DNA of 42,248 nt from Candidatus Zhuqueibacterota bacterium. GTDB lineage: Bacteria > Zhuqueibacterota > Zhuqueibacteria > Residuimicrobiales > Oceaniaggregativiventaceae. Location of the stretch: NCBI GenBank assembly GCA_014728085.1, contig WJMF01000083.1:1-42248 (forward strand), in the 5' to 3' direction. A program made the position numbers and the translations under genes. Every line of letters begins with the position of its first letter. Within the stretch, counting starts at the first letter, position 1. The notes below the pieces were generated by a model. That model was not told the origin of the DNA and made no database searches. It saw nothing but the letters and a program-made list of their open reading frames with translations. Positions 7,912-31,085 of the stretch are shown in pieces.

Positions 7912-7918
7912 GACATCC

Positions 7919-15027: not shown

Positions 15028-18021
15028 CTATCTGACCAGCAATAACTTTTTTTGCAATATGGCATCCGCTGTCGATAAACAATAAAAATAAACTCCGCTC
15101 GCCATTGAGGAGGCATCGAACTGAATGCGGTGTTTTCCTCTCTCTTTTTCTTCTTCAACCAGCACTTTAACCAATTGTCCTGAGGCATTAAAGACAGATA
15201 GATTGACATATTCTGAAGCGGGTAATGAATACTCGATTGTCGTACTGTTGTTGAATGGATTGGGGTGATTTTGCTTCAGCTGATAATCGGACGGTATTTT
15301 GTCCTCTTCGCTTGCTGTCACCTCGGTCTGTGGTCGCTGTCCCTGTCGTATCCAGAGCGGATAGATGGCATTGACCAGAAATTGCTGAAAATTATTATCG
15401 CCATTGAGACCATCGTTCTGTAATCCGGTCACATAGATGTAATCCTTGGATCCGTCGTTGTATTGAAAGATAATGGCGTCATCATTCGGGGAAAAATCAG
15501 GATAAGAAAGCGTCGTGCCGTTATAATTGACCTGTCCGGTTTCTCCGGTTTCCAGGTTAGCGGTTCGGGTAAAAACAGTGCCGTATTCATCGACATAATC
15601 ATAGGCGATAATAAAATTATTATTTGAGGCAAGCGCCGGATTACCGATATTTATCAGTGTTGACTGTGCCGGAAAAATACGTTCGACAGCCCCGTCAGAA
15701 ACGCGTATGAGGTTAATGTCCCAGTAACCGAAACCGCTTTGCCCTGAGGAAATTTCATTATATGCATCATAAAGAATATAGCGGTTGTCCAGGGTCCAGT
15801 CCAGAGCATCGGCATACCGCACAACCGGACTTTGCACGCCCTCGGTATACGTTTTGGCATAGAGCTGATAGGTTTTGACCTCCTCGTTTTCGCCGATACC
15901 GACGATGTAGAGGTTATTATCGTATTGACTGGAAATGGCTGCCAGGGTTGCGCCATCGGGTGAAACCGAAATGTTTCGGAACAGGCTGCTTTCATCAAGA
16001 ATTTCCTCCTGGCTGCCATCAAGGGCGAGAATTCGGGGATTATAGTTCATATCAACATAGAGGATGTAAGAGCCGTCATCCGGAACCGATGGTTTGCTGA
16101 GTATCTGACCGCTGGAAATCGGTTCAATGATACTGGCATCCAGATTAACGCGGTGCAATATGCGACTCTGCGAATCGACGGCTAAAATCCAGTCTTCGCC
16201 CTGCACTTCGGGTATGTTCTGCGGGGGCGGGGTCGGTTCATCTGCAGTAATGCCGACCTGATCAAAGGCTGTTTTAATAGCATTTTGTTCAACCGAATTT
16301 ACGCCATAAATCTCTCCGGCAACCCTTACCATTGCCAGCCTGGCGTCGATAAACTGCGAGCTGCGGGTAATATAATTGGTCAGAGCCTGATAATAGATAC
16401 GTTCGGTTTTATTGATTCCGATGGCATTGGAAGCCAGGGCAAAAGCGCGGTTGGGAATACCGACATTGATATGTACACCGCCCCAGTCACCCTCCTCTGT
16501 GTTGGGCAGGTCGCGGTATTCATTCATGTGTCCGGGTAATTTGGAAACCGCTTTTGGACCGGATGGATTTTGCATGTCCCGCAGCGCGTCTCCGGGAATA
16601 TTGGGGGTGGTCACATCTTCGCCGATCAGCCAGTCAGCGTTTGCACCCTCATAATAAAATTCCACGGCTGTTCCAAAAACATCGGCAAAGCATTCATTCA
16701 AAGCGCCGGATTGGAATTCGTAGATCAGATTGGCACTGAATTCTACCACACCATGGGTCATTTCATGTGCCGTTACGTCGAGGGCACCGGCGATATCGCT
16801 AAAACGTTCATTATCTCCGTTGCCGAAAACAATCAGTTTGCCATTCCAAAAGGCATTGTTATAGTTTTCCTTGTAATTGACGACAACGTATATGCTTCCC
16901 CCTTCATCATCTATACTGTTGCGGTTGTGCACCTCGTGATAATAATCATAAACAACATTGCCATGAACAGAAGCGCTGACACCATTCTCAAACCCGCCCC
17001 ATACATCGCGGCTGTTTGAAATAATATAATACAAATCTTCATTTGCGTTTTCAGCGCTCAGAACGAGTATACCACCCACCAGCACATCCGGCAATTGCGA
17101 TCTTGCGGCATCGAACATATCTTTTGCCGCATTGAGCAAATAATATTGGCCATCGAGTTGATAGGTTGAAAAGGTTTTTGGTTCACCGCTCAGATCCATT
17201 GCCGTGGAAGTGACCGGTCCGTCAAAAGCGGTTCTGTTACCGGCATGTAATATCTCTCCCGAGTTGGCATCTACGAAAATTTCCCATCGCTGGTCCAGCG
17301 CCGGCGAAGCGGTGACCAGGTAGGATAAAACCTGACGGTTGGAGTCCCGGTGTGGATAGATCAGCAATTGACTGCTGCTTTCTTTAGAGTCGATTTTAAG
17401 AAAAGCCGCCGCCTGCCTTTTCGCCTCTTCAGCGGTAATCGCTGGATTTACATCGATGCGATGATCGATGGGGTCGACCCTGCCGTTGATGCAGCGAAGA
17501 CGATTGTGGGTATCGATATGCAGGTAAAGTTCATGACCGTATACCGGTAAGTTGGCATACAACTGCTGCAAGCGAACATGCGTCATACCCGTTTTATCCG
17601 TTCTGCTCTCATAGGGAACAAGTCGGTCATCTTCGTGTTTCAGGTTCCAATATAGTTTGGCCCGATCGATAAAAGCCCGTAGACGATCACCCGGCGATTT
17701 TGAGCTTTCTATACCGGCATTCAAATTTTCTCCTTCCACCAGCAGCAGGGATTGATCCTGATGAGAGCGGTATTGCTGCAAACCATCCTGTTTCAACGCA
17801 AAAAGTTGGCTTTTTGTACTGCGAAAAACCGGAGCAGCGCTTTGTTTTCGATAGAGGAATCTGTTTATTTTATGCTGAATATCCATGAGAACATCGTTTG
17901 ACAAAGGTTTCTGATGATCAGGGGGGGCGGAACCGGCAGTGCGGTGTGGTTGTTTTTGATAGGCTATGCCCGAAACGGATACAATCAGAAAAAGGATAAT
18001 AAAAATAGGGATTGTTTTCAT
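15028..18021 (-). CDS. secreted M4 (thermolysin-family) metalloprotease with T9SS tail
   Basis: A 997-aa exported zinc endopeptidase. The start at 18021 (GGAG upstream) gives signal 'MKTIPIFIILFLIVSVSG'. An FTP/PepSY-type propeptide follows (about 85-265), then the M4 catalytic domain (about 270-595) with zinc motif 'HEMTH' (His419, catalytic Glu420, His423), third ligand Glu443 in 'GALNECFADVFG', and the transition-state His517 in 'GGVHINVGIPN'. Residues about 605-900 form a TolB/PD40-like propeller ('SVSPDGATLAAISS', 'FSPNDDAIIFQYN'). The C-terminus is a type A sorting domain beginning 'LKQNHPNPFNNSTTIEYSLP' and ending '..QKKLLLVR'. It is probably surface-exposed or released for protein degradation. 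It lies 13 bp after the small lipoprotein gene. Confidence 0.95.
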   Translation of the reverse strand: MKTIPIFIILFLIVSVSGIAYQKQPHRTAGSAPPDHQKPLSNDVLMDIQHKINRFLYRKQSAAPVFRSTKSQLFALKQDGLQQYRSHQDQSLLLVEGENLNAGIESSKSPGDRLRAFIDRAKLYWNLKHEDDRLVPYESRTDKTGMTHVRLQQLYANLPVYGHELYLHIDTHNRLRCINGRVDPIDHRIDVNPAITAEEAKRQAAAFLKIDSKESSSQLLIYPHRDSNRQVLSYLVTASPALDQRWEIFVDANSGEILHAGNRTAFDGPVTSTAMDLSGEPKTFSTYQLDGQYYLLNAAKDMFDAARSQLPDVLVGGILVLSAENANEDLYYIISNSRDVWGGFENGVSASVHGNVVYDYYHEVHNRNSIDDEGGSIYVVVNYKENYNNAFWNGKLIVFGNGDNERFSDIAGALDVTAHEMTHGVVEFSANLIYEFQSGALNECFADVFGTAVEFYYEGANADWLIGEDVTTPNIPGDALRDMQNPSGPKAVSKLPGHMNEYRDLPNTEEGDWGGVHINVGIPNRAFALASNAIGINKTERIYYQALTNYITRSSQFIDARLAMVRVAGEIYGVNSVEQNAIKTAFDQVGITADEPTPPPQNIPEVQGEDWILAVDSQSRILHRVNLDASIIEPISSGQILSKPSVPDDGSYILYVDMNYNPRILALDGSQEEILDESSLFRNISVSPDGATLAAISSQYDNNLYIVGIGENEEVKTYQLYAKTYTEGVQSPVVRYADALDWTLDNRYILYDAYNEISSGQSGFGYWDINLIRVSDGAVERIFPAQSTLINIGNPALASNNNFIIAYDYVDEYGTVFTRTANLETGETGQVNYNGTTLSYPDFSPNDDAIIFQYNDGSKDYIYVTGLQNDGLNGDNNFQQFLVNAIYPLWIRQGQRPQTEVTASEEDKIPSDYQLKQNHPNPFNNSTTIEYSLPASEYVNLSVFNASGQLVKVLVEEEKERGKHRIQFDASSMASGVYFYCLSTADAILQKKLLLVR

Positions 18022-18034
18022 AAATTCTCCTGTC

Positions 18035-18517
18035 TCAATCAATGGAACGATTCAATTCAACCAAATCAAAAAACCAGGATTTTAAATCGGCAGGCACCTG
18101 AGCGTTTTTTCCTGCTCCGGGCCAGCGCCAGGTATACGTCGTGTCTGTGGTGCTGAGATAAACGGATGTGGTGATGTTTCCTTTTTGACGATAGATTTTA
18201 CCGGATTGAGCTGATTTTAACATTTGATGATAAAGCGTTCTCAGCCGGGAGCTGTCTACAGTTCCGCTTGATATTTTTTTATCTTTGCTGCCGGGCATGG
18301 TGTCATAAACAGCGTATCGGCCGTTGCTTTTAAAGACATAGCGGCTGGTGCCGCCGCTGATCCCTCCTGTCTCTGAAAGCGTGATGGTAAAAGTCGGTTC
18401 CGCAGCAGAGTCCTGTAAGGATTGAGAGACCTTTTCTTCTGTGCAACCCGCCAAAAGCAACAGCAGCACCGTCAAAACAGCACAGAGTTTATTTGCGGTT
18501 GAATTCCTTAATTGCAT
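18035..18517 (-). CDS. small putative lipoprotein
   Basis: A 160-aa protein that begins at ATG 18517 with a typical lipoprotein signal 'LCAVLTVLLLLLAGC' (Cys about residue 24). The longer ORF from 18610 would place a charged extension before the signal and overlap the upstream gene, so it is rejected. The mature part is beta-rich ('FTITLSETGGISGGTSRYVFKSNGRYAVYDTMPG', 'TTSVYLSTTDTTYTWRWPG') and resembles generic small lipoproteins with a conserved GG-rich strand followed by a Trp-containing strand. I do not recognise a named family. It overlaps the end of the uroporphyrinogen-decarboxylase-like gene by 29 bases and precedes the M4 protease, so it might be a protease inhibitor or chaperone; that is speculation from position. 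Confidence 0.75.
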   Translation of the reverse strand: MQLRNSTANKLCAVLTVLLLLLAGCTEEKVSQSLQDSAAEPTFTITLSETGGISGGTSRYVFKSNGRYAVYDTMPGSKDKKISSGTVDSSRLRTLYHQMLKSAQSGKIYRQKGNITTSVYLSTTDTTYTWRWPGAGKNAQVPADLKSWFFDLVELNRSID

Positions 18518-19742
18518 TGAACATGGCAACCAGGTTCTCAACCGGCGTATTGGCCTGTATATTGTGTACCGTGTTAAAGACAAAACCCCCTCCTTTATTA
18601 AAGATTTCACAGTGTTTTAACACCTGATCTCTGACTTTTGCGGGTGTTTCAAAGGGCAGGGTGGATTGCGTATCAATACCGCCTCCCCAAAAAACAATAT
18701 CTTTTCCATATTCCTGTTTGAGGTGCTCCGGTTCCATGCCGGCGGCGGAAATCTGTACCGGATTGAGGATATCAAAACCGCTCTCGATAAAGCGGGGAAT
18801 CAGATTTTCGACAGCTCCACAGGAATGCTTGAAGGTCTTCCAGGAGGTGTGATCGTGAATCCAGTCATTGATTTTTTTATAGTAAGGATGATACAAAGAG
18901 TGATAGGTATCCGGACTGCAAAACGTGGAATGCTGCGTACCGAAATCGGTTCCACAGATAAAGACAACATCGACATCATCATAGACACCGGCTAGTCTGG
19001 CCATATTTTCCAGCGCATAGTCGGTTTGTTTGCTGAAAATCTTGTGTATATAATCCTGTCTTGCCACGGTTGATACATACCATTCTTCGATATCGCGAAT
19101 GCCTTTGGGGTGTTTCATAAAAGGTGCCGGAACCAGGGCAATATCCCCGAGTCCGGTACCGGGTATTGCCGCAATGACAGCCCGGCCGGTTTGCGCTGCT
19201 CTCTCGGCCTCATGGGCGTAAAACTGCAGTTCCTCATCCGAAATCAGGCCAAACTCTTCGAGATTATCCTGAGGATCCAGTTTTTCTTCGTCGACGGGCT
19301 CTTGTCTCACAATCGTATCGAAAAAAAAACCACCCTTCGGCATGCGGCCGCTGGGAGGGGCTGCAACATCTCCTTCCGGATAAATCAGCGTATCACCCTT
19401 TTCGTCAATGGTAACATTAAAATGGCCGGAGACCAGAACGTCGAGTCCATTTTCAAGTTTCCAGGATTTCCAGTTTTCATTTTTAAAGCCGAACAGGGTT
19501 TTATAGCCAAAAACGCCTTCGACATCAACACCAATTGCTTCCTGTAAATCTTCCTCGATCAGTCCGAGGAGCTGATAGGGCTCGTGAATTTTAACGGGAC
19601 GTTTTTCAAGGCCATAATAATCGCGCAAAGCTGCCACGCAGGTCACATGCATACCGGTGACGCCGGTGGCGCCGATATCTACGGGAACGGCGTCCGGTTC
19701 CTTATGATCTAAAGAGGTCAATACCCGTTCTCTGGATGTCAT
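18489..19742 (-). CDS. uroporphyrinogen decarboxylase superfamily protein (MtaA/CmuA-like)
   Basis: A 417-aa TIM-barrel protein of the URO-D superfamily. The N-terminus 'MTSRERVLTSLDHKEPDAVPVDIG' is the usual opening of the methyltransferase-like branch. 'TFKHSCGAVENLIPRFIESGFDILNPVQ' (about residues 305-330) carries the HxCG motif that binds zinc and activates thiol acceptors in corrinoid methyltransferases such as MtaA, and 'FWGGGIDTQSTLPF' follows. This branch, widespread in anaerobes and FCB bacteria, is not a haem-synthesis HemE. No corrinoid protein gene is adjacent, so the methyl donor or acceptor is unknown. GGAG lies a suitable distance before the ATG. The 3' end overlaps the lipoprotein gene. 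Confidence 0.88.
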   Translation of the reverse strand: MTSRERVLTSLDHKEPDAVPVDIGATGVTGMHVTCVAALRDYYGLEKRPVKIHEPYQLLGLIEEDLQEAIGVDVEGVFGYKTLFGFKNENWKSWKLENGLDVLVSGHFNVTIDEKGDTLIYPEGDVAAPPSGRMPKGGFFFDTIVRQEPVDEEKLDPQDNLEEFGLISDEELQFYAHEAERAAQTGRAVIAAIPGTGLGDIALVPAPFMKHPKGIRDIEEWYVSTVARQDYIHKIFSKQTDYALENMARLAGVYDDVDVVFICGTDFGTQHSTFCSPDTYHSLYHPYYKKINDWIHDHTSWKTFKHSCGAVENLIPRFIESGFDILNPVQISAAGMEPEHLKQEYGKDIVFWGGGIDTQSTLPFETPAKVRDQVLKHCEIFNKGGGFVFNTVHNIQANTPVENLVAMFNAIKEFNRK

Positions 19743-20019: not shown

Positions 20020-22044
20020 ATGTATACGCTTGCAACCCTCCCGGGTGATGATATTCGAAGTATAATGTGGCGTTTTGCTGACAGATTTGAATTGCAGATG
20101 CTGGTTCAATCCGTCAGAGCTGTGGCACGCGGACCCGTAGCGCGTGCCGTGGCGGAAGGTGCCAGAAACAGTCATGAATGGACGACAAAAAAATCACAAC
20201 TGTTAAAAGCATTCGATGAATCCGGTATCACTGCTGTGTTTATGGATCCCGAATATGGCGGTTTCATTGAAGGCCCCAAGAACTTTGCCCTTGCCCTGAC
20301 TGCGTACGAATTGTCCTGGGTCGACGCTGGTGCCGCCACCGGTAGTCTGGCTGGAAATCTTGCTCTGGAACCGATTCATGAGCGCGGTACAGAAGAACAA
20401 AAGCGAACTTATATGGGCGGTGCAGTGCCGCCGCAGCAGGGCGAGGATCGCATTCAGTATCGCGGTGCGTTTGGGCTGACGGAACCCCTCCCCTATGTCG
20501 GGGTCGAAACCGGTATGCTCGGCGGTAAGGTTCGCGTTGCCGACTGGTCTGCTGACAAGGAACCCGTTCTGCAGGTTGAAAAACGCGGTCGCTTTATCAC
20601 CAATATGGACTTTGCCAATTTTGTCTGTGTCGCTGTCGAAAGCGATGATGACCGTATCAAGGGCAGCTGTATGATTATTTTGGAGGAAACCGATCCCGGT
20701 ACGTTTGACCGAGGTGCCCCCACCCTCAAGCTGGTACACCAGCTCTCCTCTACCCGCGATCCGGTATTTAATATGAAGGTCCCCGCCAGCCGCATTATCG
20801 GCGGTTATACCGTTAAAGACGGTGTCATTCTTCCCAATTTCAGCCACGCAGAGATTATCGATCCGGTTTTCAAACATACACGGGTTACGGTTGGTTTGAT
20901 GACGGCAGCCAAACTGGTCTCTGCCGTCGAGCCCGTCATTCGATATCAGCGCGGTCGCTTTCGCGGCGGTAGTCTAGAACCCGAATCGCCCCGCTATAAA
21001 CTGGGAATACAGCAAAAAGAAGATGCTTTACACCGAACTGCAGCTGTCTGGGCTGCGGGAGAAGCGGCATCTTCACTCGGGTTTGCTGCCGCCAGACTTT
21101 TCGATGAGCTCGATCCGATGGAAAAAGAAAAAGAAAAATACTTTCGGGAACAAGGCATCAATAAAGGTCGTGCCGAATTTAAAGCCCTGATGAAGATTCA
21201 ACAAGATGCTGTCAACCATCTCGAAAACGATGACGACGCCCCCATTGGCGATCCGATGATTCAATACGTCATCACCGATTCACTGGCCAATGTGCTCTGT
21301 CCAGCCACCAAATTGTGGAATACCGGCGAAGGGGCAACCGTAATGCGCGAGGCGGTTTCGCTGATGGGTGGTTATGGCATTACAGAAGACTGCCCCGGTT
21401 TTCTCGGGCAAAAATGGATGGATTCACAGCTCGAAGCCACTTATGAGGGGCCGGAAGCGGTGCAAAGGCGCCAGCTTTCCATTACCATGACCAACAAGGT
21501 CTTTTTGACCCAATTCGGTAACTGGATACAGCGGCTTGAAAATCTGTCCTTAACCCATAGCGACATGGGAATAAAGTCACTGGTCAGCGGAATGAAAATC
21601 TGGCTGGAAACACTCGATTATCTGCAAACACATCGCGATGAAAATAATACAAAACTGTATAGCAGCTCCCGGCAGGGCGTTACCTTTGCAATGGCCGATG
21701 CCCTCTGCTGGTTGCTGTCCTCCTATTATCAAATGGAGGATGTGCTGCAATTACTACAAAAGGGTCCTGAAAACGCAGCGGTGGCGCCCAATCTGGAGGG
21801 GTATGTCGCTTTTTTCAAGGATCTTTGCTTTATTCAGGCTTCGCGTGCTGCGCATCAGGTGGCACAAATTTGTTCAGAGCTCTATTACGGCAGTGCCTCC
21901 ACCCTGCCCGAGTCCGGCGATATCCTGACACCGTTGCTGCAGGAGCTCAACGCCAATATTGCCGGTGTGCATCTGGCAAAGGACCGCGCTGCTGAAGCGC
22001 TGACAATGGTCATGATACCAGAAGCCCTGGATTATCCGCAATAA
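20020..22044 (+). CDS. acyl-CoA dehydrogenase family flavoprotein, long form
   Basis: A 674-aa FAD enzyme that oxidises an acyl-CoA to enoyl-CoA and passes electrons to ETF. Core features are 'FDESGITAVFMDPEYGGFIEGPKNFALALTAYELSWVDA' (helical N-domain), 'GAFGLTEP' (FAD/substrate strand, about residue 150), 'LMGGYGITED' (about 450) and the catalytic base Glu476 in 'ATYEGPEAVQRRQ'. It is longer than the usual 380-400 aa because of a C-terminal helical region of about 180 residues after the base, as in very-long-chain or AidB-like members, plus an unusual N-terminus 'MYTLATLPGDDIRSIMWRFADRF'. It is first in an operon with its ETF-quinone oxidoreductase and both ETF subunits, 83 bp before the next gene. 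The substrate is not predictable; the family assignment is firm. Confidence 0.9.
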   Translation: MYTLATLPGDDIRSIMWRFADRFELQMLVQSVRAVARGPVARAVAEGARNSHEWTTKKSQLLKAFDESGITAVFMDPEYGGFIEGPKNFALALTAYELSWVDAGAATGSLAGNLALEPIHERGTEEQKRTYMGGAVPPQQGEDRIQYRGAFGLTEPLPYVGVETGMLGGKVRVADWSADKEPVLQVEKRGRFITNMDFANFVCVAVESDDDRIKGSCMIILEETDPGTFDRGAPTLKLVHQLSSTRDPVFNMKVPASRIIGGYTVKDGVILPNFSHAEIIDPVFKHTRVTVGLMTAAKLVSAVEPVIRYQRGRFRGGSLEPESPRYKLGIQQKEDALHRTAAVWAAGEAASSLGFAAARLFDELDPMEKEKEKYFREQGINKGRAEFKALMKIQQDAVNHLENDDDAPIGDPMIQYVITDSLANVLCPATKLWNTGEGATVMREAVSLMGGYGITEDCPGFLGQKWMDSQLEATYEGPEAVQRRQLSITMTNKVFLTQFGNWIQRLENLSLTHSDMGIKSLVSGMKIWLETLDYLQTHRDENNTKLYSSSRQGVTFAMADALCWLLSSYYQMEDVLQLLQKGPENAAVAPNLEGYVAFFKDLCFIQASRAAHQVAQICSELYYGSASTLPESGDILTPLLQELNANIAGVHLAKDRAAEALTMVMIPEALDYPQ

Positions 22045-22127
22045 ATCCGGATTTAAAAATGATATATATGGCCTTTTGTGACTACCAACAGCAAAAAGCA
22101 AAATAGTGTAAAGCGAGTACTTGAATC

Positions 22128-23978
22128 ATGTCAAACAATGAACGACAATCCATGAAAGTGGATATTGTATGTGTCGGTTTTGGACCGGCAACTGCAGGAT
22201 TTTTATCGGAAATCAGCAAAAACCTGACTTACGATGACGGCTCGGTCAAGCTGTCGAGCCGTGCCATGCCCGGCATGCCGTTACAGATTATCTGTTATGA
22301 ACGATCCGATGATATCGGCTTTGGGGTTTCCGGGGTGGTTTCAAAAGCACATTCGATCCGGCAATCCTATCCGGACCTCAATGGGTCTGAAATTCCGTTG
22401 ACCATTGACGTTAAGAAAGAAAAACTGGTTTATCTGCTCGATCCGCATGGTGCCAGCTCGCGCTCTGCAGGATTGAAAATTACCGACAAAATACTCAAGC
22501 TTGGCAAATGGCTGCCCTGGTATAAAAAGGAAGCGCTGGAGTTGCCCGTTATACCCTCGTTTTTGCAAAAACACGACGGTTTGATTTTTTCTATGGGCCA
22601 ATTCAGCCAGTGGGCGGCATCGCGAATTCTCGGTAGCGGCATGGTGCAATTGTGGCCCGGCATGCCGGTCGATAAAGCCCTCTTTTTCGAAAACAAAATG
22701 ATCGGCGTGCAAATGGTGGATCAGGGAACTGATAAAAAAGGAGAACCGGCTGACGGCTATATGCCAGGCATGCAGATTGAAGCTGACCTTACTGTTTTGG
22801 GCGATGGCCCGGTTGGCAATATCAGCAGACAGCTGGATGAAAAGTTTGGGCTGCCGGATGATCACCAGCAAAAAGACTGGGCAGTGGGTATGAAAATGGT
22901 CATCGAACTGCCCGCTCATACGAACCTGAAAGCCGGGACTGTTTTCCATACTTTCGGCTATCCCGAACCCGAAATTTTCGGATTTCTCTATGTTCATCCT
23001 GAAAATATCGTTTCTGTGGGTATTTTTGTGCCTTCCTGGTATGAAAATCCTGTACGCACCGCCTACCGATACCTGCAGCAGTACATCAAACATCCCTATT
23101 TCCGGGATGATATCAAGGGCGGCAAGCTCAAATCATGGGGCGCGAAATCGATACAGGAATCCGGTAAACGCGGTGAACCGCATCTCGCAGGCAACGGATG
23201 GGCCCGTATTGGAGAAGGTTCTGCGAGTACCAACATACTGACAAATTCCGGTGTGGACGAAGCCTGGGAAACCGGAGTATTATTGGCACAAGCAGTCGAA
23301 AAGCTGGCTGCTGCGAACCAGCCCTTTACACAGGAAAATCTGGAAAAGACCTATGTCAATATGCGCCGTAAAAGCCATATTGAAGAAGAAGCTGAACAGG
23401 CCAGACACAGCCGCGACGGATTTCATCGTGGATTTATTCGTGGCCTGATCGGCATGGGATTGACAGGATTGAGCAAGGGAAAGTTGAATGTAAAAACAGA
23501 GCCCAAATCGACTCATCAAATTCTCAAACAGCCGGAAGATTATTTCAAAGGCAGAATATCTAAAGAAAGAATCGCAGAGCTTAAGCAACAGGCTTTTAGC
23601 AAAGGCCTGGCTCTTAATGATTTGCTCATGCAAGAGCTGGGATGGCCGGAGATCGAATACGATGGGCAACTGTTTATGTCGCATCAGGATGCATTGCTGG
23701 TCGGCGGTAAAGTTCAGGCACCCAACGGTTACCGAGACCACGTTGTATTTCTGCACCCGCACCTGTGCAAGGAATGCGATAACAAAATTTGTATAGAAAT
23801 GTGCTCGGGCCAGGCGATTACACCGGGCGAAGACGGCGTTCCCAATTTTGACAATGACCGCTGTATCCATTGCGGCGCCTGTATGTGGAACTGCGTCAAA
23901 CCCGTTGAAAGTAAAGTGGATAAAATTAATATCGATTTTCAAGCCGGGGCCGGAGGCTTGCATTCGGCTGAAAACTAG
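22128..23978 (+). CDS. ETF-quinone oxidoreductase-like flavoprotein fused to a ferredoxin domain (FixC-FixX type)
   Basis: A 616-aa protein expected to take electrons from ETF and reduce membrane quinone. The N-terminal dinucleotide fold 'VDIVCVGFGPATAGFLSEI' (residues 11-29) binds FAD. The segment 'GFGVSGVVSKAHSIRQSYP' and the later 'GWARIGEGSASTNILTNSGVDEAWETGVLLAQAV' match the FixC/ETF-QO architecture. The C-terminus is a ferredoxin domain with eight cysteines: 547, 550, 555, 559 and 579, 582, 585, 589. This allows two 4Fe-4S clusters, whereas mitochondrial ETF-QO has one. A helical insertion 'RDGFHRGFIRGLIGMGLTGLSKG' before it could be the membrane-association segment. It lies between the acyl-CoA dehydrogenase and etfB. 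A second ATG at 22152 is possible; neither start has a strong ribosome-binding site. Confidence 0.85.
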   Translation: MSNNERQSMKVDIVCVGFGPATAGFLSEISKNLTYDDGSVKLSSRAMPGMPLQIICYERSDDIGFGVSGVVSKAHSIRQSYPDLNGSEIPLTIDVKKEKLVYLLDPHGASSRSAGLKITDKILKLGKWLPWYKKEALELPVIPSFLQKHDGLIFSMGQFSQWAASRILGSGMVQLWPGMPVDKALFFENKMIGVQMVDQGTDKKGEPADGYMPGMQIEADLTVLGDGPVGNISRQLDEKFGLPDDHQQKDWAVGMKMVIELPAHTNLKAGTVFHTFGYPEPEIFGFLYVHPENIVSVGIFVPSWYENPVRTAYRYLQQYIKHPYFRDDIKGGKLKSWGAKSIQESGKRGEPHLAGNGWARIGEGSASTNILTNSGVDEAWETGVLLAQAVEKLAAANQPFTQENLEKTYVNMRRKSHIEEEAEQARHSRDGFHRGFIRGLIGMGLTGLSKGKLNVKTEPKSTHQILKQPEDYFKGRISKERIAELKQQAFSKGLALNDLLMQELGWPEIEYDGQLFMSHQDALLVGGKVQAPNGYRDHVVFLHPHLCKECDNKICIEMCSGQAITPGEDGVPNFDNDRCIHCGACMWNCVKPVESKVDKINIDFQAGAGGLHSAEN

Positions 23979-24007
23979 AGACAAGCTTACAACCGTGGAG
24001 TAAAACA

Positions 24008-24814
24008 ATGACGAATCTTAATGTCGTGGTCTGTGCCGGAATCGTGCCGGATCCTTTACAAACCCTTGACCCTGTGCAAACAGGAGAAAAACCGGGGTTG
24101 CGCAACGAAATGATGCTCCCCCATGTCCTCGATCCCTGGGCCGGCCATGCTCTTTATGAAGCAGCCGAACTGGTCAAAGAAACAGGGGGAAAATTATATG
24201 TGGTCAGCATCGGCCCAAAAGCAAAGTTACAGCAAGTCATGATGACAATCGCGCAAAAAGTACCGTTTCAGCTCATCGCCGCAGACGCTGCTGCGGGTGG
24301 GTTTTCCGATTCAAAGCAAATTGCTGTACAGCTCGCAGAGCTTGTTAAACAAATCGACGGACTTGATTTATCAAATACATTGTTATTCGGAGGCTGGGAA
24401 TCTGCTTCCAGAGGGGCCGGGACAACGCTGCAAATGGTCGGGGAAATACTCGGTGTTACGGATCAGTTTCAGGGGGTTGACAAAATCAGCCTGAATGACG
24501 ATGGCTCTTTTAAAGTGCTGGAACGCATCGAAGGGGGGAAACATCTGCATTCCAGCTGCAGCGGCGCGCCGGCTGTGCTGGGCTGGGCGACCGGTTATCT
24601 GCCGGAACCTCCGAACAATCCTCAAATCGGTATGACCAATATGCGCACCATTATGCCGGCACTGCAACAGGCAAAACCCGCTGATCTTGAAAACCCGGAA
24701 TTGACATTCACTGCTGTTGAATTGCCAAAACAAAAACGGGATACAAAAATTGTCAAGGATATATCTGCAGATGAAATCGCACAGGAAATCATTGATTGGA
24801 TAAAAAGTAAATAG
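24008..24814 (+). CDS. divergent electron-transfer flavoprotein beta subunit
   Basis: A 268-aa cytoplasmic protein with the EtfB/UspA-like alpha/beta fold: 'NVVVCAGIVPDP' replaces the usual 'vlVaVKrVPD', 'LDPWAGHALYEAAELVKETGGKLYVVSIGPKAKLQQVMM' follows the family pattern, and 'LERIEGGKHLHSSCSGAPAVLGWATGYLPEPP' occupies the position of 'REvDGGletv..lPavvt'. The canonical nucleotide-binding 'DgDsnQtG' is not present; 'GWESASRGAGTTLQM' stands in its place. GGAG precedes the ATG by seven bases. Identity as an ETF subunit is supported by the neighbouring etfA-like gene six bases downstream and the ETF-QO upstream. It is a distant branch, so its nucleotide and partner may differ. Confidence 0.78.
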   Translation: MTNLNVVVCAGIVPDPLQTLDPVQTGEKPGLRNEMMLPHVLDPWAGHALYEAAELVKETGGKLYVVSIGPKAKLQQVMMTIAQKVPFQLIAADAAAGGFSDSKQIAVQLAELVKQIDGLDLSNTLLFGGWESASRGAGTTLQMVGEILGVTDQFQGVDKISLNDDGSFKVLERIEGGKHLHSSCSGAPAVLGWATGYLPEPPNNPQIGMTNMRTIMPALQQAKPADLENPELTFTAVELPKQKRDTKIVKDISADEIAQEIIDWIKSK

Positions 24815-24820
24815 GAAAAT

Positions 24821-25855
24821 ATGATGAGCAAAATACTTGTCGTTACACCGGTTGAATCAGATGGCACCCTGCCACAGGCAGCCGGAGAAGCCCTGGGTGC
24901 CGCTATAACCCTGAAAGAGATGCTCGAGGCAGAATTATGCATAGGAATATGGGGCCAGGATGTGGATATGGCGATCGAGAATCTGGGAACGGACGCCGTC
25001 TCCAGTGGTTTTAAGGTTGAAGGAGAAGCGTTCACCGTTTCCCGTTATGCCAGCGATGCAGCCGCCTGTGAAGCAATTTGCCGTCAAGCTAAAGCCGATA
25101 TCGTCATCACTCCCGATTCTGTGCGCACGAATCGGACAATCGCAGGCGTTGCCTTTCGTCTCAATGGCGTTAGCGATACACATATAACCGAATTCAAGAT
25201 AGAAAATGGAGATTTGGTGGTGAGCCGCTGGCACTATCGTCAGCGCATACTGGCCCACCTTAAACGCAGCCAAAGACCGTGGTTTATATCGATTGAATCC
25301 GGTGTTTTCATCCCCCCACAGGGTGACAGTAAAGTACCGTCAACAGAAGCTCTCTCTGTCGATGTCAATGACGCTTTGACCCGCACGACGGTCAAGGGTA
25401 TCGAAACACCTGCCGGCGACGAACAAACCATTCGCCCGGATGCCGAGCTCTTGTTTGTCGCCGGAGCCGGCTGGACCAAAAAACAGCCTGATGGTGAGGT
25501 CAAAGCCGCTCAGGCCGCTGATATTATACTCGAATTTTTAAAGGAGAGCAAGTCTTCTCTCGGCAGCACAAAATCACTGGTGGATTTGAGCAGCGAAGGT
25601 GCAGCTGTTCTGCCGTTTATGACCCAGCTCAACCAGGTCGGTCAAACCGGTTCGACTCCCCGTCATGACAAGGGTTTGGCCACATGTTGTCACGGTGAAG
25701 AACCTCACGTGGTTGGATGGCGCTTTGTCAATGAGCGCCGCGTGATCAATCTCGATCCCAATTGTGGTTGGGCGCATGGCAAAGCCGATGTGCTCTATGT
25801 CGCCGACGCCTTTACGGTCATGCAAAAGGTGAACGAGCTGCTGGGTAACCAGTAG
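24821..25855 (+). CDS. divergent electron-transfer flavoprotein alpha subunit
   Basis: A 344-aa protein with the two-domain EtfA layout. The N-terminal Rossmann-like domain starts 'SKILVVTPVESDGTLPQAAGEALGAA', and the C-terminal FAD domain starts 'AELLFVAGAGWTKKQPDG' (about residue 208). 'QLNQVGQTGSTPRHDKGLATCCHG' (about 269-292) corresponds to the conserved 'QVGqTGk.v.P.lYia.GisGa.qH' FAD region: QVGQTG is retained but the rest is replaced, including an unusual Cys-Cys pair. 'RRVINLDPNCGWAHGKADVLYVADAF' replaces 'INkDp.ApIF..aDyg'. The usual GRG and GSR motifs are GAG and GST. FAD binding is likely but altered. ATG 24821 or 24824 could start; both follow AGGA. Confidence 0.75.
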   Translation: MMSKILVVTPVESDGTLPQAAGEALGAAITLKEMLEAELCIGIWGQDVDMAIENLGTDAVSSGFKVEGEAFTVSRYASDAAACEAICRQAKADIVITPDSVRTNRTIAGVAFRLNGVSDTHITEFKIENGDLVVSRWHYRQRILAHLKRSQRPWFISIESGVFIPPQGDSKVPSTEALSVDVNDALTRTTVKGIETPAGDEQTIRPDAELLFVAGAGWTKKQPDGEVKAAQAADIILEFLKESKSSLGSTKSLVDLSSEGAAVLPFMTQLNQVGQTGSTPRHDKGLATCCHGEEPHVVGWRFVNERRVINLDPNCGWAHGKADVLYVADAFTVMQKVNELLGNQ

Positions 25856-26565
25856 ACATAATGCTGCTCTTGTATACGAACCCCGGGATCCGGTTTCGAT
25901 TTGCGAAAATTTTCTTTCGGATTATTTGTGCGTAAAACCCTGTCGCCCCCTGGCGGGGGCTTGATGTTGTGTGGTAGATTCCACGGGCTCACGCCCGAGG
26001 CTGAGTCCTTGCGCCCCCTGGCGGGGGCTTGTTGTGGTGACGCTAATTTCACGAGCTCACGCCTGAGGCTGAACTCTTGCGCCCTCCTGGCGGGGGCTTG
26101 CAGCAGTTTAAAATAGAATGCCCTGAAAAGTACACCAAATAGTCTTCTCTAAACCAAAGGTTGCTCCTCCCATTGCAGCGCAGGCAGCATGACGTCAATT
26201 CCTTTATCAGCTTGTATTCAAACATCACTCCAGGAACACAATACCGATTTATGGGTATTAATCAGCTCCCCATTCAACCCTTGCACCACAGGCGGCTCCT
26301 GTTTTTATGGCGTACGATCTTTGCTATGGCCCTGATTATGTCACAGAGTTTTAACAAAAGACTCTATTTAAACCACTGATACACGTTCACAGAGACTGCG
26401 TAAAAACAAAAAAGGTGCGGCGCAGCCGATTTACGCTACTCAATATGATTCATTAAAATTGATTCATTTACGTAAACGTGGTGCGCCTCACCTGTATGCG
26501 ATAATTTGTTTTTTCCGGGTCTCTCTGGCTGTGAACCCGAAAAACAATAAAAATAAAAGAAAAAT
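25856..26565. other. gene-free region between convergent operons, contains tandem repeat
   Basis: About 710 bp between the end of etfA and the end of the toroid protein gene, both pointing into it. It holds the 68-bp tandem repeat at 25944-26100. The remaining 450 bp contains a 72-codon ORF (26161-26379) with no coding character, direct repeats of TGATTCATT near 26449 and 26460, and a 10-base palindrome TTTACGTAAA at 26467-26476. No convincing terminator for either operon was found. Confidence 0.55.
25944..26100. repeat. 68-bp tandem repeat with internal palindromes, 2.3 copies
   Basis: Copies start at 25944, 26012 and 26080 (the last partial), an exact 68-base period. Each begins with a GC-rich inverted repeat (gccccc-TGGC-gggggc followed by TTG) and carries mid-unit a second inverted repeat (GGGC-TCAC-GCCC in copy 1, degenerating in copy 2). 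The unit is not open in all copies and is not protein-coding. It resembles REP-type or attenuator-like palindromic elements, and no transposase is associated in the window. Confidence 0.85.
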
Positions 26566-29214
26566 CTATTTCAACACCGCAATTTTACCTATCGCCTTGT
26601 CTCCGTTTTCGGGTTCGATGACGTAAAAATAGACACCGTTGGCGACCAGGTCGCCCTGATCGTTAAGGCCGTTCCAGGACAATTCTACCTGTTGACCCCC
26701 CATCTGAAACTGACTGTCCATAAGCGTGGTAACCAAATCACTGGCAGCATCATAGAGTTTTACGGTGATATTGCCGGATGCACTCAGCTCAAAATGAATC
26801 GTTCCCATTCCCTGAGAAAAGTTGATTGGATTGGGATAAAAATAGTGATTGCTGATTTGTGCGCCACCTCCTGTCGCCATAACGCCGGTGGTTACCGGAA
26901 TGGCCCGGGTTTGGCTTGAACTCTGTACCGTGATTAATCCCTCAAACAATCCGGAGGTGGTAAAATCTACCGTACTCTGAGGCGGTGCGGTAAAATAACC
27001 GGTAATGTTTTGCGACCCTCCTGCCGGTATGGCCACAATGGAATTCGGCACGAATTGAAAAGCAGACGATGGAATGGTATTGCCGAATTGATCCGCCATT
27101 TCGGTCGCGAACACATCAACACTCAGCAAATTGGTGGAATCACCGGTTTCGTAAACGATGAGGTTAAAGGTATAGGTGCTGTCGTTTATCGGATTGGCGA
27201 TTTGAACCCGCTCCGGTTCTATCGTCATTTGAGCGAAAATAAAGGGTTTTGGCGCATATACCGTCAAACCGCCGATGGCGTTTACGCTTGCCGAGGTTCC
27301 AAATACCTGCTTGCCCTTAACGATTCCGGAAAAGTGTTTGGAGCTGACCGGGTTGGGATTATCGCCCTGATAGGCTTCGAGATAGAGGTCATAGGCGAGA
27401 TCGTTTACATTGCCGTTATGAAGTTCGATTGAAAACGCGGATGCGGAGAGCAGATCGATTTGAAAATGGTTATCGGTGACCCAGGAAGATAGCGGAATAT
27501 CAGTCATAAAGCTGCCGCTGTTATCCGGTCCGGCAAAGCGGCCCTCGGTATCATACAAGTTTAAATAAAGTCCGTTAAGCGCATTCGCCGGCGGTGTATA
27601 GGGACTGCCATCCACAGAGCCGGGAATCAGACGGATGACAAAGCGGGAATCTTCAGGAACCGTACCGGTCTGCATCGATAACACGGCCATAGCAGTGCTG
27701 CCATGGTCACCGAGGTGGGAAGACGCAATGGTATATCCGTCTGGTGCCGTCCAGCCGGTTGTCCAGTAATAATTTCGCATTTCATCCTGTTGATGCTGAA
27801 TTTTAATTTTATTATAAAGGAGATTATACCAGTCTTCGCCGATGAATTTGCTTTTACCGCCCAACGCCATCGCTTTGGCAAATTCATAAACATAATAGTA
27901 ATAACCGCCGCCGGAATAGACATAGTTATCGAGCCAGTCCGGGCATATCACATCGGTCAAATTACCGCCATCACCGATATAGTTGTACATGCTGTCCGCC
28001 AGCTCGATGGTGTTTTTGACCCCATAATTGTTGGCCAGGATTAATCCCCAGATGGCGGCCAGGGTGTTGCCCCGTTCTCTCGTACCGCCACGGTAATAAC
28101 CGATCCAGGCTTTATCCGCTTCCGTCCGGCGCCAGGTCTGAATGTAATTGAATATCTTTTGCCAGATATCTTTTTGCGTATACTCCATCGCATTGAGAGC
28201 GAGATAGGCCCACTGGTTGGCGGACATGTCTCCGTTATCTTCACTGATATAACTGCGATCGTAACGCCAGCTGACGCGATTCCAGGATTCATCGACATCA
28301 GCCGTGTAATAGGCCAGAGCGGATTGTAACGCATTTTCGACGTCGGTTCTGATCGGATCTGATAAACCGCTCTTTAGAGCCGATTTTAGAGCCACAACGG
28401 CCATGGCGGATTCATAACCGGCTGAATAATTATAGATGGCACCGGCGTGATACCCCTCTGTGCTTTGTGTTTCCAATAGATACCGTATCGCCCGCTCTAT
28501 TGTTGGGCCGAACCCGCTACTTTCAATCGTATACCCCTGTGCCAGAAAGGACTGAAGGGCCAGGGCGGTAATACCGGCATTTGGGTTGCCGGAGTAATTC
28601 CAGGAACCGAGTTCATCCACAGTGGTGCCGGTACTTTTCCTCAAAGCAGGGCGTTCACTCCCCCCCATTTCATCCTGAACAATAGCCCGCTGCAGGCTGG
28701 TAATGTTTTGCTCTGATTTTAACCAGGCTAATCCTTTTTCAACGAGTAGATCTTCCGTATAGAGAATGGCATTCGCCTCGCTGTCGGAAAGCGACTGGTT
28801 GTTATAGGCCGCTGTAACGCTGACAGGGTAAAAACCAGGTTGCGCAACAGAGGGTGGCTGAATGGATAAATAGTAGTGGTCGAACATCTCCTGGAGAATG
28901 AGAACGGTTGCCTGATTAACGCCAATAGCAACCTGAAAATTTTCTTTTTGCAGTCCTGATATAAACTGACCGTCATTACTGTTTACAGCCACTTTGATTC
29001 GAAGCGTATCGGACAGCAGATCCGAAAACAGATTCACAATATGTTTGGATTCAGTCGGATAGACGAGATCGATAATAAAGGCATCCTGTTGAATCTCTGC
29101 AATGGTTGTTTCCGATTTTTGGACACTCTGGGACTGCAAGAGGCTCGGCATCGACAGAATTGTAATCAGCATTAAGAAGACATAAAATGAGAAAAACCGA
29201 ATTCCCCTTTTCAT
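26566..29214 (-). CDS. secreted terpenoid-cyclase-fold (alpha/alpha toroid) protein with T9SS/FlgD-like tail
   Basis: An 882-aa exported protein. Signal peptide 'RFFSFYVFLMLITILSMPSLLQSQS' follows an AGGAG site. An Ig-like strand region (about 45-150) precedes a long helical repeat region (about 155-530) of the prenyltransferase/squalene-oxidase-repeat type: 'VEKGLAWLKSEQ', 'NAGITALALQSFLAQGY', 'AIRYLLETQSTEGYHAGAIYNYSAGYESAMAVVALKSA', 'MSANQWAYLALNAMEY', 'GSTAMAVLSMQTG'. The DxDD or QW catalytic motifs of real squalene cyclases are not evident, so it may bind rather than cyclise. Beta domains follow, and the C-terminus 'YFYPNPINFSQGMGTIHFELS...IAVLK' is FlgD/type A sorting-like. Last gene of a four-gene operon with another toroid protein. 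Confidence 0.83.
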   Translation of the reverse strand: MKRGIRFFSFYVFLMLITILSMPSLLQSQSVQKSETTIAEIQQDAFIIDLVYPTESKHIVNLFSDLLSDTLRIKVAVNSNDGQFISGLQKENFQVAIGVNQATVLILQEMFDHYYLSIQPPSVAQPGFYPVSVTAAYNNQSLSDSEANAILYTEDLLVEKGLAWLKSEQNITSLQRAIVQDEMGGSERPALRKSTGTTVDELGSWNYSGNPNAGITALALQSFLAQGYTIESSGFGPTIERAIRYLLETQSTEGYHAGAIYNYSAGYESAMAVVALKSALKSGLSDPIRTDVENALQSALAYYTADVDESWNRVSWRYDRSYISEDNGDMSANQWAYLALNAMEYTQKDIWQKIFNYIQTWRRTEADKAWIGYYRGGTRERGNTLAAIWGLILANNYGVKNTIELADSMYNYIGDGGNLTDVICPDWLDNYVYSGGGYYYYVYEFAKAMALGGKSKFIGEDWYNLLYNKIKIQHQQDEMRNYYWTTGWTAPDGYTIASSHLGDHGSTAMAVLSMQTGTVPEDSRFVIRLIPGSVDGSPYTPPANALNGLYLNLYDTEGRFAGPDNSGSFMTDIPLSSWVTDNHFQIDLLSASAFSIELHNGNVNDLAYDLYLEAYQGDNPNPVSSKHFSGIVKGKQVFGTSASVNAIGGLTVYAPKPFIFAQMTIEPERVQIANPINDSTYTFNLIVYETGDSTNLLSVDVFATEMADQFGNTIPSSAFQFVPNSIVAIPAGGSQNITGYFTAPPQSTVDFTTSGLFEGLITVQSSSQTRAIPVTTGVMATGGGAQISNHYFYPNPINFSQGMGTIHFELSASGNITVKLYDAASDLVTTLMDSQFQMGGQQVELSWNGLNDQGDLVANGVYFYVIEPENGDKAIGKIAVLK

Positions 29215-29245
29215 ATTTTCTCCTTCCCTGGTATTTTACTAGTCC

Positions 29246-30388
29246 TCAGCGTTGATCCGGCAATAACGATGAGGTATTAAACGGCTCTAAAACCTGTTCT
29301 AGAGATAACACAACATAGGCTGTCACCAAAACCGGATTGTTCTCCCACCAGCGGCCGTTTGAATTGACCCAGCTGCCATCGGCGTTTTGAATTTGGAGTA
29401 ATTGATCGGCCAATTCATGACGCCAGTAATGATTTTTTTGCTTTGCCGTGGTAATCACATCTATGTCGGCCACGCTCAGGGCTTTGGCCATAGTGTGATA
29501 ATAGTAATATAATCCCTGCATTCCCATAGCGGGATTTTCTTTGACGGTATAATGTTTTTGCAGCCATTCCAGAGCCGCCTGGACTCTGGGATCCGATCGG
29601 GATACAGAAGCGTGGATAAAGCTCTTCAATCCGGCGTACGTCATGCTGCCGTAGGAATGCGTTTCACCCGCTTTGCTGGTACCGGGACTGTACATAAATC
29701 CGCCATCATCGACACTACAGGATTGATCGTTATAAGCTTTGAGGTTCTGGCACCTCTGTAAAAATTGAATGGCGCGGTCGAAAAAGAGTGTCCGTTTTTC
29801 TTCAAACTTTTTTTCTGCAAGATTTAAATGCAACGTATCATCCGGGGCCTGCTCTTCGCTCGCCACAGCTTCCAGAGCCCATTGTAAATTGGACAGGTTG
29901 CAGGGCTTGTCATCTTTGCCGTAACTGACGCCGCCATAGTTGATGCTGTCCGGCGGCACGTCATTTTCTTCAGATTTCTGCATACTTATAATAAAAGACT
30001 GGGCATTTCTGATGATTGGATCGTAGAGAAAATTATCGGCGTCCTTGAAGGCCATAATGCAGATCGAGGTGCTATAGGTCTGCATATCATCATTGTAGAT
30101 ACCGCCATTATCATGAATACAGGATTTCAAAAAATTGAATCCTCTGGCGATGATGGAATCTTGTTCAGAAATAGCCGGATGCGCCCGTAAAAAAGAAGAT
30201 AATACCAAACCGGTAATCGCCGTATGCTGTTGCCAGCTGCCGTTTTTGTCCTGTTGATCGTGTAGATACTCCAGCCCGCGAATAATGGCATGTTCGATCT
30301 CTTTTTGCATGGAAAGATCGATACGCTGCTGTGGTGTAACAAGCGATGAAAAAATAAAGAGGGGAATAATCAAGAGTCGATGCATCAT
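29246..30388 (-). CDS. secreted prenyltransferase/squalene-oxidase-repeat protein
   Basis: A 380-aa exported protein with signal 'MMHRLLIIPLFIFSSLVTPQQ'. The body is an alpha/alpha toroid of squalene-cyclase-like repeats: 'AIIRGLEYLHDQQDKNGSWQQHTAITGLVLSSFL', 'GFNFLKSCIHDNGGIYNDDMQTYSTSICIMAF', 'VDDGGFMYSPGTSKAGETHSYGSMTYAGLKSFI' and 'LADQLLQIQNADGSWVNSNGRWWENNPVLVTAYVVLSL'. The arrangement matches the secreted prenyltransferase/squalene-oxidase-repeat proteins common in Planctomycetes and related groups, whose function is not established. No catalytic DxDD is seen. There is no sorting tail, so it is probably periplasmic or outer-membrane associated. Its start overlaps the YdjY gene stop by four bases (translational coupling), and it is followed 31 bp later by the second toroid gene. 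Confidence 0.85.
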   Translation of the reverse strand: MMHRLLIIPLFIFSSLVTPQQRIDLSMQKEIEHAIIRGLEYLHDQQDKNGSWQQHTAITGLVLSSFLRAHPAISEQDSIIARGFNFLKSCIHDNGGIYNDDMQTYSTSICIMAFKDADNFLYDPIIRNAQSFIISMQKSEENDVPPDSINYGGVSYGKDDKPCNLSNLQWALEAVASEEQAPDDTLHLNLAEKKFEEKRTLFFDRAIQFLQRCQNLKAYNDQSCSVDDGGFMYSPGTSKAGETHSYGSMTYAGLKSFIHASVSRSDPRVQAALEWLQKHYTVKENPAMGMQGLYYYYHTMAKALSVADIDVITTAKQKNHYWRHELADQLLQIQNADGSWVNSNGRWWENNPVLVTAYVVLSLEQVLEPFNTSSLLPDQR

Positions 30389-31032
30389 GGGGGTTGCTTC
30401 TCCTCGTTTATAGGTTGAATAAAAATCCGCGCAGTTGTTCCTTTGGGCGGCACAGTTGTTTCATTAACTCGGTAAACCGTATCATCATGGCGTGTCTCAA
30501 GACCATTTGCCAGGATACAGGAGAGATTATAGGTGGCGATCAAGGTCTGCTCGAATTCGGCGGCGAGTTCGCCGGTCGGGTATATCGGTGACCCGACAAA
30601 TGTCCAGGGTATATCCGAAACCGGTTGGTCGAGTTGCTGATTCCAAAGCAGTTTTCCGGCGCCAAAACGTTTTCCATCCAATTCGATCTCAATGGAAAAG
30701 CTAGCGGGAGTCACCTTTTGGCCACCTGGATTATTAAGCGGAATATATCCCATGGTCATCAGGGCCGTCTGCAGTACCAAAGGCCGAACCGGGGTAACCA
30801 GCAGACTTTCATGTACCTTGCCCTTTGGGGTACAGAGTAAAACTTCAATCAACCCCTTTGACATGTTGATCTTCGCCGGGATTTCGATGAGCTGTTGTTC
30901 CGCGTCCAGAATCAGTTGTTCGATACGATAGCGATTTTTATCGATTTTTTCGACAATCGCCCGATCGTCTTTCAGGGCAAATAGCAGTTGAGCACTCATC
31001 AAAATGCAGAAGAAATACCGGGTAATACGCAT
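30385..31032 (-). CDS. YdjY-domain exported protein
   Basis: A 215-aa protein whose best start is ATG 31032 (GAGGA eight bases upstream; an alternative ATG at 31038 is too close to it). The signal peptide is 'MRITRYFFCILMSAQLLFA'. The middle matches the YdjY domain pattern: 'IEIPAKINMSKGLIEVLLCTPKGKVHESLLVTPVRPLVLQTALMTMGYIPL' (about residues 48-98), with the conserved 'LLCTPxGKxHESLLVT' core, followed by 'FVGSPIYPTG' and a final strand region. YdjY-domain proteins are small and of unknown function. The coupling to a downstream toroid gene (ATGA overlap) and the PorV-like gene upstream suggests a shared envelope process. Confidence 0.8.
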   Translation of the reverse strand: MRITRYFFCILMSAQLLFALKDDRAIVEKIDKNRYRIEQLILDAEQQLIEIPAKINMSKGLIEVLLCTPKGKVHESLLVTPVRPLVLQTALMTMGYIPLNNPGGQKVTPASFSIEIELDGKRFGAGKLLWNQQLDQPVSDIPWTFVGSPIYPTGELAAEFEQTLIATYNLSCILANGLETRHDDTVYRVNETTVPPKGTTARIFIQPINEEKQPP

Positions 31033-31085
31033 ATTCATTTTCCTCTTATGCTGCCTTTGGCAGATCAATTGCCGCAAAACGCCTT

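Follow-up and report, generated by a model that had tools for sequence, protein, structure and literature searches.

The stretch of DNA considered here, referred to as the window, comprises 42,248 nucleotides of contig WJMF01000083.1 from a Candidatus Zhuqueibacterota bacterium. At its centre lies a four-gene cassette encoding, in this order, an acyl-CoA dehydrogenase (ACD), an electron-transfer flavoprotein (ETF)-quinone oxidoreductase (QO) and the two ETF subunits EtfB and EtfA. All four open reading frames (ORFs) are intact, lie on the + strand and are separated by 83, 29 and 6 bp. These ORFs and their Pfam matches bear out the first-pass annotation, which had described four co-directional genes for an acyl-CoA dehydrogenase, an ETF-QO, EtfB and EtfA. 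The genes and their main features are the following.

20020..22044, + strand: ACD, 674 aa, FadE/VLCAD-type architecture
21445..21447, + strand: codon of the catalytic Glu476 (LEATYEGP), from alignments with relatives
22128..23978, + strand: QO, 616 aa, with a fused ferredoxin-like part as its C-terminus
23766..23894, + strand: two predicted 4Fe-4S sites in QO (C547, C550, C555, C559 and C579, C582, C585, C589)
24008..24814, + strand: EtfB, divergent beta subunit, 268 aa; PF01012 at 38.0 bits, above the cut-off of 26.7
24386..24433, + strand: EtfB loop FGGWESASRGAGTTLQ, at the position of the AMP or bifurcating flavin adenine dinucleotide (FAD) motif, from alignment with DDDNxQVGP- and DGDTAQVGP-type ETFs
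24605..24625, + strand: EtfB insert EPPNNPQ, aligned with the stretch that contains the dehydrogenase recognition loop in known ETFs
24821..25855, + strand: EtfA, divergent alpha subunit, 344 aa; PF01012 at 58.2 bits, above the cut-off of 26.7
25571..25573, + strand: EtfA Lys251, where canonical ETFs have a flavin-side Arg (GASR)
25634..25651, + strand: EtfA QVGQTG, a flavin motif that is kept
25688..25720, + strand: EtfA family signature CHGEEPHVVGW (elsewhere SGAIQHLAGM), from alignment; served as search pattern

By sequence, the resemblance to solved structures is weak. ACD matches butyryl-CoA dehydrogenase (E 8e-12) and QO, by phmmer, the ETF-QO 2gmh (E 2.7e-27), with E values of 0.004 for EtfB and 2e-6 for EtfA, and none of the four proteins reaches the cut-off of any NCBIfam model. 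The ACD is nevertheless a member of the acyl-CoA dehydrogenase superfamily, as is evident from its N- and C-terminal domains (Acyl-CoA_dh_N, 47.2 bits; Acyl-CoA_dh_1, 38.6 bits; both above the Pfam gathering score), its catalytic glutamate and its whole fold. The glutamate motif (E476, LEATYEG), reported earlier as kept, is present in 46 of 47 ACD relatives. An AlphaFold2 model based on the family alignment (predicted local distance difference test, pLDDT, of 87) aligns over its whole length with the long-chain acyl-CoA dehydrogenases of the FadE/VLCAD type (3owa: Z 28.3, 530 residues, root-mean-square deviation (rmsd) 3.5; 2z1q and FadE5: Z around 27-28), residues 15-666 being matched to enzymes of 580-600 aa. 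The unusual terminal extensions previously ascribed to this protein do not survive the comparison: there is no real N-terminal one, and the C-terminal one is mostly the known C-terminal domain of the FadE/VLCAD type. The ACD shares the fold and the catalytic glutamate of these enzymes, but differs in its low identity to them (14-19%), in having its own ETF partner and, as its true oddity, in a helical insert near residues 365-420 that is charged and variable.

The QO combines an FAD domain and a ubiquinone (UQ)-binding domain (ETFQO_UQ-bd, PF21162; 47.7 bits against a cut-off of 27.7), as does the classical ETF-ubiquinone oxidoreductase (2gmh). Classical ETF-QO carries one 4Fe-4S cluster, bound by four cysteines, whereas the cassette QO departs from this single four-cysteine pattern. 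Eight cysteines, arranged as CxxCx4CxxxC and CxxCxxCxxxC, are invariant in 55 of 55 sequences and would form two 4Fe-4S sites, as judged from the motifs. The ferredoxin domain recognised earlier is thus present, and the second cluster site had gone unremarked.

Both ETF subunits belong to the ETF family, as follows from their PF01012 scores and from the fold of EtfB. The AlphaFold2 model of EtfB (family alignment, pLDDT 89) is an ordinary EtfB fold, matching the Geobacter metallireducens ETF 5ow0_B with a Z of 23.2 over 233 residues (rmsd 3.9); confidence is lowest, below 50, at residues 133-135 of the altered loop. The region that reads GKQA[IV]DD[DG]NxQVGP in ordinary ETFs is replaced by FGGWESASRGAGTTLQ, so that the acidic AMP-binding motif of group 1 (DD[DG]NxQ[VI]GP type in the ordinary ETFs compared) gives way to WESASRGAGTTLQ. 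The motif DGDTAQVGP of bifurcating ETFs (PMC9232219), which accommodates the bifurcating FAD (b-FAD) in group 2, is likewise absent from EtfB of every cassette member compared. Within the replaced loop, S132, A133 and R135 are invariant across 53 sequences, and the EPPNNPQ insert is invariant or nearly so in the family alignments. From its alignment with the recognition-loop stretch of known ETFs, the insert may be tied to dehydrogenase recognition. In EtfA, QVGQTG is retained, as is the His on the flavin side; Lys takes the place of the usual Arg (LGSxKS) and GAGWTK that of GGRG, and its FAD-binding domain ETF_alpha (PF00766) scores 14.2 bits, under the cut-off of 27. The earlier statement that both subunits depart from the canonical nucleotide-binding motifs therefore holds for EtfB, and for EtfA only in part.

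A scan of GTDB species genomes with the EtfA signature confirmed at least 421 loci; a subset of 80 was retained and supplies the lineages named here. An oddity private to the window's genome is ruled out by these relatives, and the label 'highly divergent' applies to the family as a whole rather than to this genome in particular. Carriers are found in about a dozen phyla, among them Desulfovibrionaceae, Geobacter-like Desulfuromonadia, Acidobacteriota, Omnitrophota, Verrucomicrobiota, Planctomycetota, Sumerlaeota, Hydrogenedentota, Gemmatimonadota, Methylomirabilota and KSB1. Occurrence is patchy (3-11%): 6 of 146 Desulfuromonadia, 9 of 297 Acidobacteriota and 9 of 82 genomes of the window's phylum carry the cassette. 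The eight other carriers in that phylum belong to the same order and to two families, with EtfA identities of 51-58%; the next matches, at 22-27%, are ordinary ETFs.

Since a naive ORF caller gave false antisense ORFs in GC-rich loci, the operon genes were placed by tblastn. Across 84 loci the order is always ACD-QO-EtfB-EtfA for genes found on the EtfA strand. All four genes are present at 49 of these loci, including the window, and many others stop at a contig edge. At a few loci (e.g. L052, L054, L066, L080, L109) EtfBA is split off behind a long upstream sequence; G101, G102 and G103, the three genomes of this kind that were checked, have a cassette-type ACD at another place in the genome. 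Identities to the window proteins are mostly 56-68% for ACD (one partial copy 45%), 49-61% for QO, 57-69% for EtfB and 51-58% for EtfA, and the pairwise divergences of the four proteins correlate (r 0.76-0.79, with 0 of 500 permutations as high). Conserved order beyond the window's genome had been set beforehand as the test of a dedicated unit, and the same order indeed recurs across phyla. Of the 'dedicated, coevolved unit' proposed earlier, co-inheritance is thus supported by the synteny and by the correlated divergence, which by itself is no proof of physical co-evolution.

In a tree of 21 cassette EtfA sequences and 47 others (ordinary ETFs of the phylum and of carriers, ETFs with the bifurcating motif, E. 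coli FixB and YdiR, and two plasmid ETFs), the cassette sequences form one side of a branch with a support of 100/100 and a stem of several substitutions per site. The EtfB tree, a quick one that carries a long-branch warning, gives the same split. These trees support a cassette ETF clade distinct from bifurcating-type, FixAB/YdiQR-type and ordinary ETFs, the published groups G3-G5 lying outside the comparison; to this extent the suggestion of a distinct ETF group is upheld. Within the cassette clade, divergence is shallow and the phyla radiate in a star-like way, which together with the patchy occurrence suggests horizontal spread. A plasmid search returned distant ordinary ETFs only. No description of the cassette was found in literature searches, which did not cover the published classification of ETF groups (Garcia Costas et al. 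2017).

Several related arrangements were seen in carriers of the cassette. At L232 (2010-9464, - strand) a single ORF of 2484 aa contains ETF-QO, ferredoxin, ACD, EtfB and EtfA, and at L231 (2091-7367, + strand) an ORF of 1758 aa contains ACD, EtfB and EtfA. These two single-ORF proteins, encoded in two carrier genomes (G093, Verrucomicrobia, and G097, Kutchimonas), have ordinary ETF motifs and are not of the cassette type; they represent natural fusions of the whole chain from acyl to quinone. At three Omnitrophota loci (L062, L082, L091), a second, ordinary ETF-QO and an ETF with a DGDTAHVP-type motif lie 3' of the cassette EtfA, in ORFs of 676 aa (L062) and 674 aa (L082), with L091 cut by the contig end.

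The window's genome is 97.9% complete with 0.03% contamination, and gene absence is stronger evidence here than in most other carriers, which are metagenome bins. The cassette provides the only ETF pair, the only ACD N-terminal domain and the only ETF-QO detected in it. No match to enoyl-CoA hydratase (ECH) is present, and those to 3-hydroxyacyl-CoA dehydrogenase (3HCDH) and thiolase are weak, no stronger than expected for other Rossmann and ketosynthase proteins, so that no member of the beta-oxidation set is convincing. A general beta-oxidation role in this genome is thereby ruled out, and the cassette is not the entry step of beta-oxidation in this organism. A similar state, with one acyl-CoA dehydrogenase and no 3HCDH, is found for example in Solidesulfovibrio alcoholivorans (G085), which has one weak-family hydratase, and in further carriers (G096, G100, G103, G042, G047). 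Members of the window's order that lack the cassette instead have one ordinary acyl-CoA dehydrogenase and an ordinary ETF, with no ETF-QO of the cassette kind. The two sets thus almost exclude each other within the order; one genome (G046) has both ETFs.

Gene flanks of the cassette vary, and among the neighbours examined only one rare gene type, enoyl-acyl carrier protein (ACP) reductase, turns up repeatedly in lineages independent of each other. Such a gene lies within 1.5 kb of the cassette at 12 of about 90 loci, representing several reductase subfamilies and five phyla, compared to 0 of 58 loci of ordinary ETFs with 1.5 kb flanks. FabI is co-directional and 55-276 bp downstream of EtfA at three Acidobacteriota loci (L223, L100, L057), and a PRK06300-type FabI (470.7 bits, cut-off 356) follows EtfA in Gemmatimonadota (L085). 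A FabL-like short-chain dehydrogenase/reductase (SDR) is found 39 bp downstream in Omnitrophota (L090), and divergent and upstream at three KSB1 loci of the window's own family (L034, L035, L037). In Desulfuromonadia, FabMG adjoins the cassette at four loci (L041, L046, L060, L074; PF22046, 675 bits in L074) and is 2.3 kb away at L038; FabMG is an enoyl-ACP reductase with experimental support (PMC9260719). A rough binomial estimate for five lineages by chance is 5e-5 to 1e-11 per family and, corrected for all Pfam families, 1 to 3e-7, the range reflecting different assumptions on genome size, on reductase copies and on how many lineages are independent. This adjacency is a good hint, not proof, of a link to fatty-acid synthesis.

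Other neighbours were set aside. An SDR at window positions 14157-14960 was rejected as an enoyl reductase, being 5 kb away and FabG/glucose-dehydrogenase-like. Some loci have extra genes within the cassette (alpha-acetolactate-decarboxylase-like, radical SAM and membrane proteins, named by eye), none of which recurs across lineages, and recurrent GFO/IDH/MocA and response-regulator neighbours were discounted in view of the many copies of these families per genome. None of 41 genomes checked, carriers and non-carriers alike, has a FabA match above the cut-off; the absence of FabA was therefore dropped as an argument for a role in unsaturated fatty acids. Three Geobacter-like carriers (G082, G084, G088) have giant ORFs of 2320-2360 aa with repeated FabA-like dehydratase domains, as in polyunsaturated-acyl synthases.

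The route from acyl thioester through ACD, EtfAB and QO to quinone follows from the established chemistry of these families, and is suggested for the cassette by its closed, exclusive gene set. In the proposed circuit, ACD would add two hydrogens to, or take them from, the 2,3-bond of an acyl thioester. Electrons would pass between ACD and a dedicated, non-bifurcating EtfAB, which QO would in turn connect, by way of FAD and two 4Fe-4S clusters, to the quinones of the membrane; the four proteins presumably work together. The reading tentatively preferred, with a rough probability of 0.45, is that this self-contained acyl-thioester:quinone circuit is tied to fatty-acid synthesis and not to fatty-acid degradation. 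A type II fatty-acid-synthesis acyl pool is favoured because beta-oxidation is not detected in the window's genome and enoyl-ACP reductases recur as neighbours. The substrate, an 'unknown acyl-CoA' in the first-pass annotation, would then be narrowed to a medium or long acyl chain of that pool, ACP- or CoA-bound, and the net reaction would run oxidatively towards the 2-enoyl thioester, opposite to that of the adjoining enoyl-ACP reductase. That oxidative backtracking inside fatty-acid synthesis exists is known from Helicobacter pylori FabX (PMC8626469). By analogy, the cassette might be an O2-independent, quinone-linked dehydrogenase of type II fatty-acid synthesis that converts mid-length acyl-ACP or acyl-CoA to the 2-enoyl form, seeding unsaturated or otherwise modified chains, with a one-flavin ETF that lacks the EtfB nucleotide; in this specific form the proposal is unlikely.

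Several observations weigh against a link to fatty-acid synthesis. At about 87% of the loci, among them the window, no enoyl-ACP reductase adjoins the cassette, the FabL-like genes score under the FabL cut-off, and the neighbour statistic fails correction under the least favourable assumptions. Geobacter-like and acidobacterial carriers possess ordinary ETFs and full beta-oxidation besides the cassette. Because of its patchy occurrence, the cassette is accessory and not a core lipid step. Furthermore, with menaquinone at -74 mV (PMC10734219) and crotonyl-CoA/butyryl-CoA at -10 mV (PMC9232219), acyl oxidation is uphill and needs pull from later steps, whereas enoyl reduction is downhill. The same accessory, self-contained and apparently horizontally spread character, and the FadE/VLCAD-like fold that ACD shares with known beta-oxidation enzymes, would suit a dedicated catabolic circuit, in which ACD oxidises the acyl-CoA of one imported substrate and delivers electrons to quinone without the rest of beta-oxidation. 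Yet the neighbours examined include no CoA ligase, transporter, hydratase or thiolase that is conserved next to the cassette, several carriers lack any hydratase and hydroxyacyl-CoA dehydrogenase, and the recurrent rare neighbour is an enzyme of fatty-acid synthesis, which leaves this catabolic role a plausible minority reading.

The circuit might instead run in reverse, with quinol electrons passing through EtfAB to an ACD that acts as enoyl-thioester reductase, either as an electron sink or as a back-up. At standard potentials, electrons flow downhill from menaquinol to enoyl-CoA. The neighbouring enoyl reductases act on the same substrate class, and E. coli caiA/fixABCX, annotated as 'crotonobetainyl-CoA reductase', has such an arrangement. 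An NAD(P)H-driven enoyl-ACP reductase is, however, already in the cell wherever one adjoins the cassette, for which reason oxidation is slightly favoured over reduction, and no respiratory or substrate-uptake genes recur nearby; the reverse direction thus appears rather unlikely. A new bifurcating or confurcating ETF, with NADH or ferredoxin also involved as in EtfABCX and the two-cluster QO as a fused FixCX, would account for the two 4Fe-4S motifs, which recall the two clusters of Thermotoga maritima EtfX, and for the gene set resembling EtfAB plus FixCX. It is quite improbable, given that no EtfB among the members compared has the b-FAD motif and that no alternative motif is recognised there. 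Finally, although all folds tested are ordinary ones, an ordinary ETF/ACD/ETF-QO set for the breakdown of branched-chain amino acids or fatty acids that evolves fast in some lineages is very hard to reconcile with members that share one deep clade, are about 48-69% identical across phyla and hence not fast-evolving within it, and occur in genomes that have ordinary ETFs as well.

Known systems resemble the cassette in part. E. coli ydiO-ydiQRST likewise has an acyl-CoA dehydrogenase, an ETF pair (EtfB, EtfA), an ETF-QO (FixC-like) and a ferredoxin (FixX-like) in one neighbourhood, but QO and ferredoxin are separate genes there and fused in the cassette. The FixX/YdiT ferredoxin has one cluster motif (CPAG and CLECGTC for ydi) compared to two in the cassette QO, the ydi ETF falls outside the cassette clade, and fadK and a CoA transferase adjoin ydi. 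In E. coli caiTABCDE-fixABCX (crotonobetainyl-CoA reduction) an acyl-CoA dehydrogenase also lies near its own ETF, FixC and FixX; this system differs in its reductive direction, in the substrate genes alongside and in its ETF clade and motifs. The bifurcating EtfABCX of T. maritima (group 2; PMC10734219) shares EtfAB, a quinone-reducing flavoprotein and two 4Fe-4S clusters, whereas the cassette has QO and ferredoxin fused, includes ACD and has an EtfB without the b-FAD motif. The acyl-ACP dehydrogenase/isomerase FabX of H. pylori, which acts in unsaturated fatty acid synthesis (PMC8626469), resembles the cassette only in the proposed 2,3-dehydrogenation: it belongs to an unrelated family and uses O2.

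ETF is usually viewed as a hub that gathers electrons from many dehydrogenases. The cassette represents a deep ETF branch, present in about a dozen phyla and unnamed in NCBIfam, that appears to serve a single dehydrogenase and a single quinone reductase, and a natural ETF without the EtfB nucleotide motif offers a chance to test the purpose of that nucleotide. If the link to fatty-acid synthesis is true, membrane-lipid building would be joined to the respiratory quinone pool, and this could help to explain how acyl chains are modified in some anaerobes that lack FabA.

Further features surround the operon. Just 3' of EtfA, a 68-nt tandem element (25939-26100) is present in 2 copies at 79%; its core CCCCCTGGCGGGGGCTTG occurs three times at a spacing of 68-69 nt, and the element is possibly a terminator or a mobile palindromic repeat. 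A URO-D/MtaA-like methyltransferase gene (18489-19742, - strand) is divergent from the operon and recurs at one other locus only (L037). On the other side, next to the operon, three proteins are encoded at 26566-31077 on the - strand: one of 882 aa whose repeats look prenyltransferase/terpene-cyclase-like by eye, one of 380 aa that matches SQHop_cyclase_C, and a neighbour of 230 aa. At window positions 5644-8013, 9000-10850 and 15028-18042, several proteins, a thermolysin-type protease among them, carry C-terminal sorting tails of type IX secretion.

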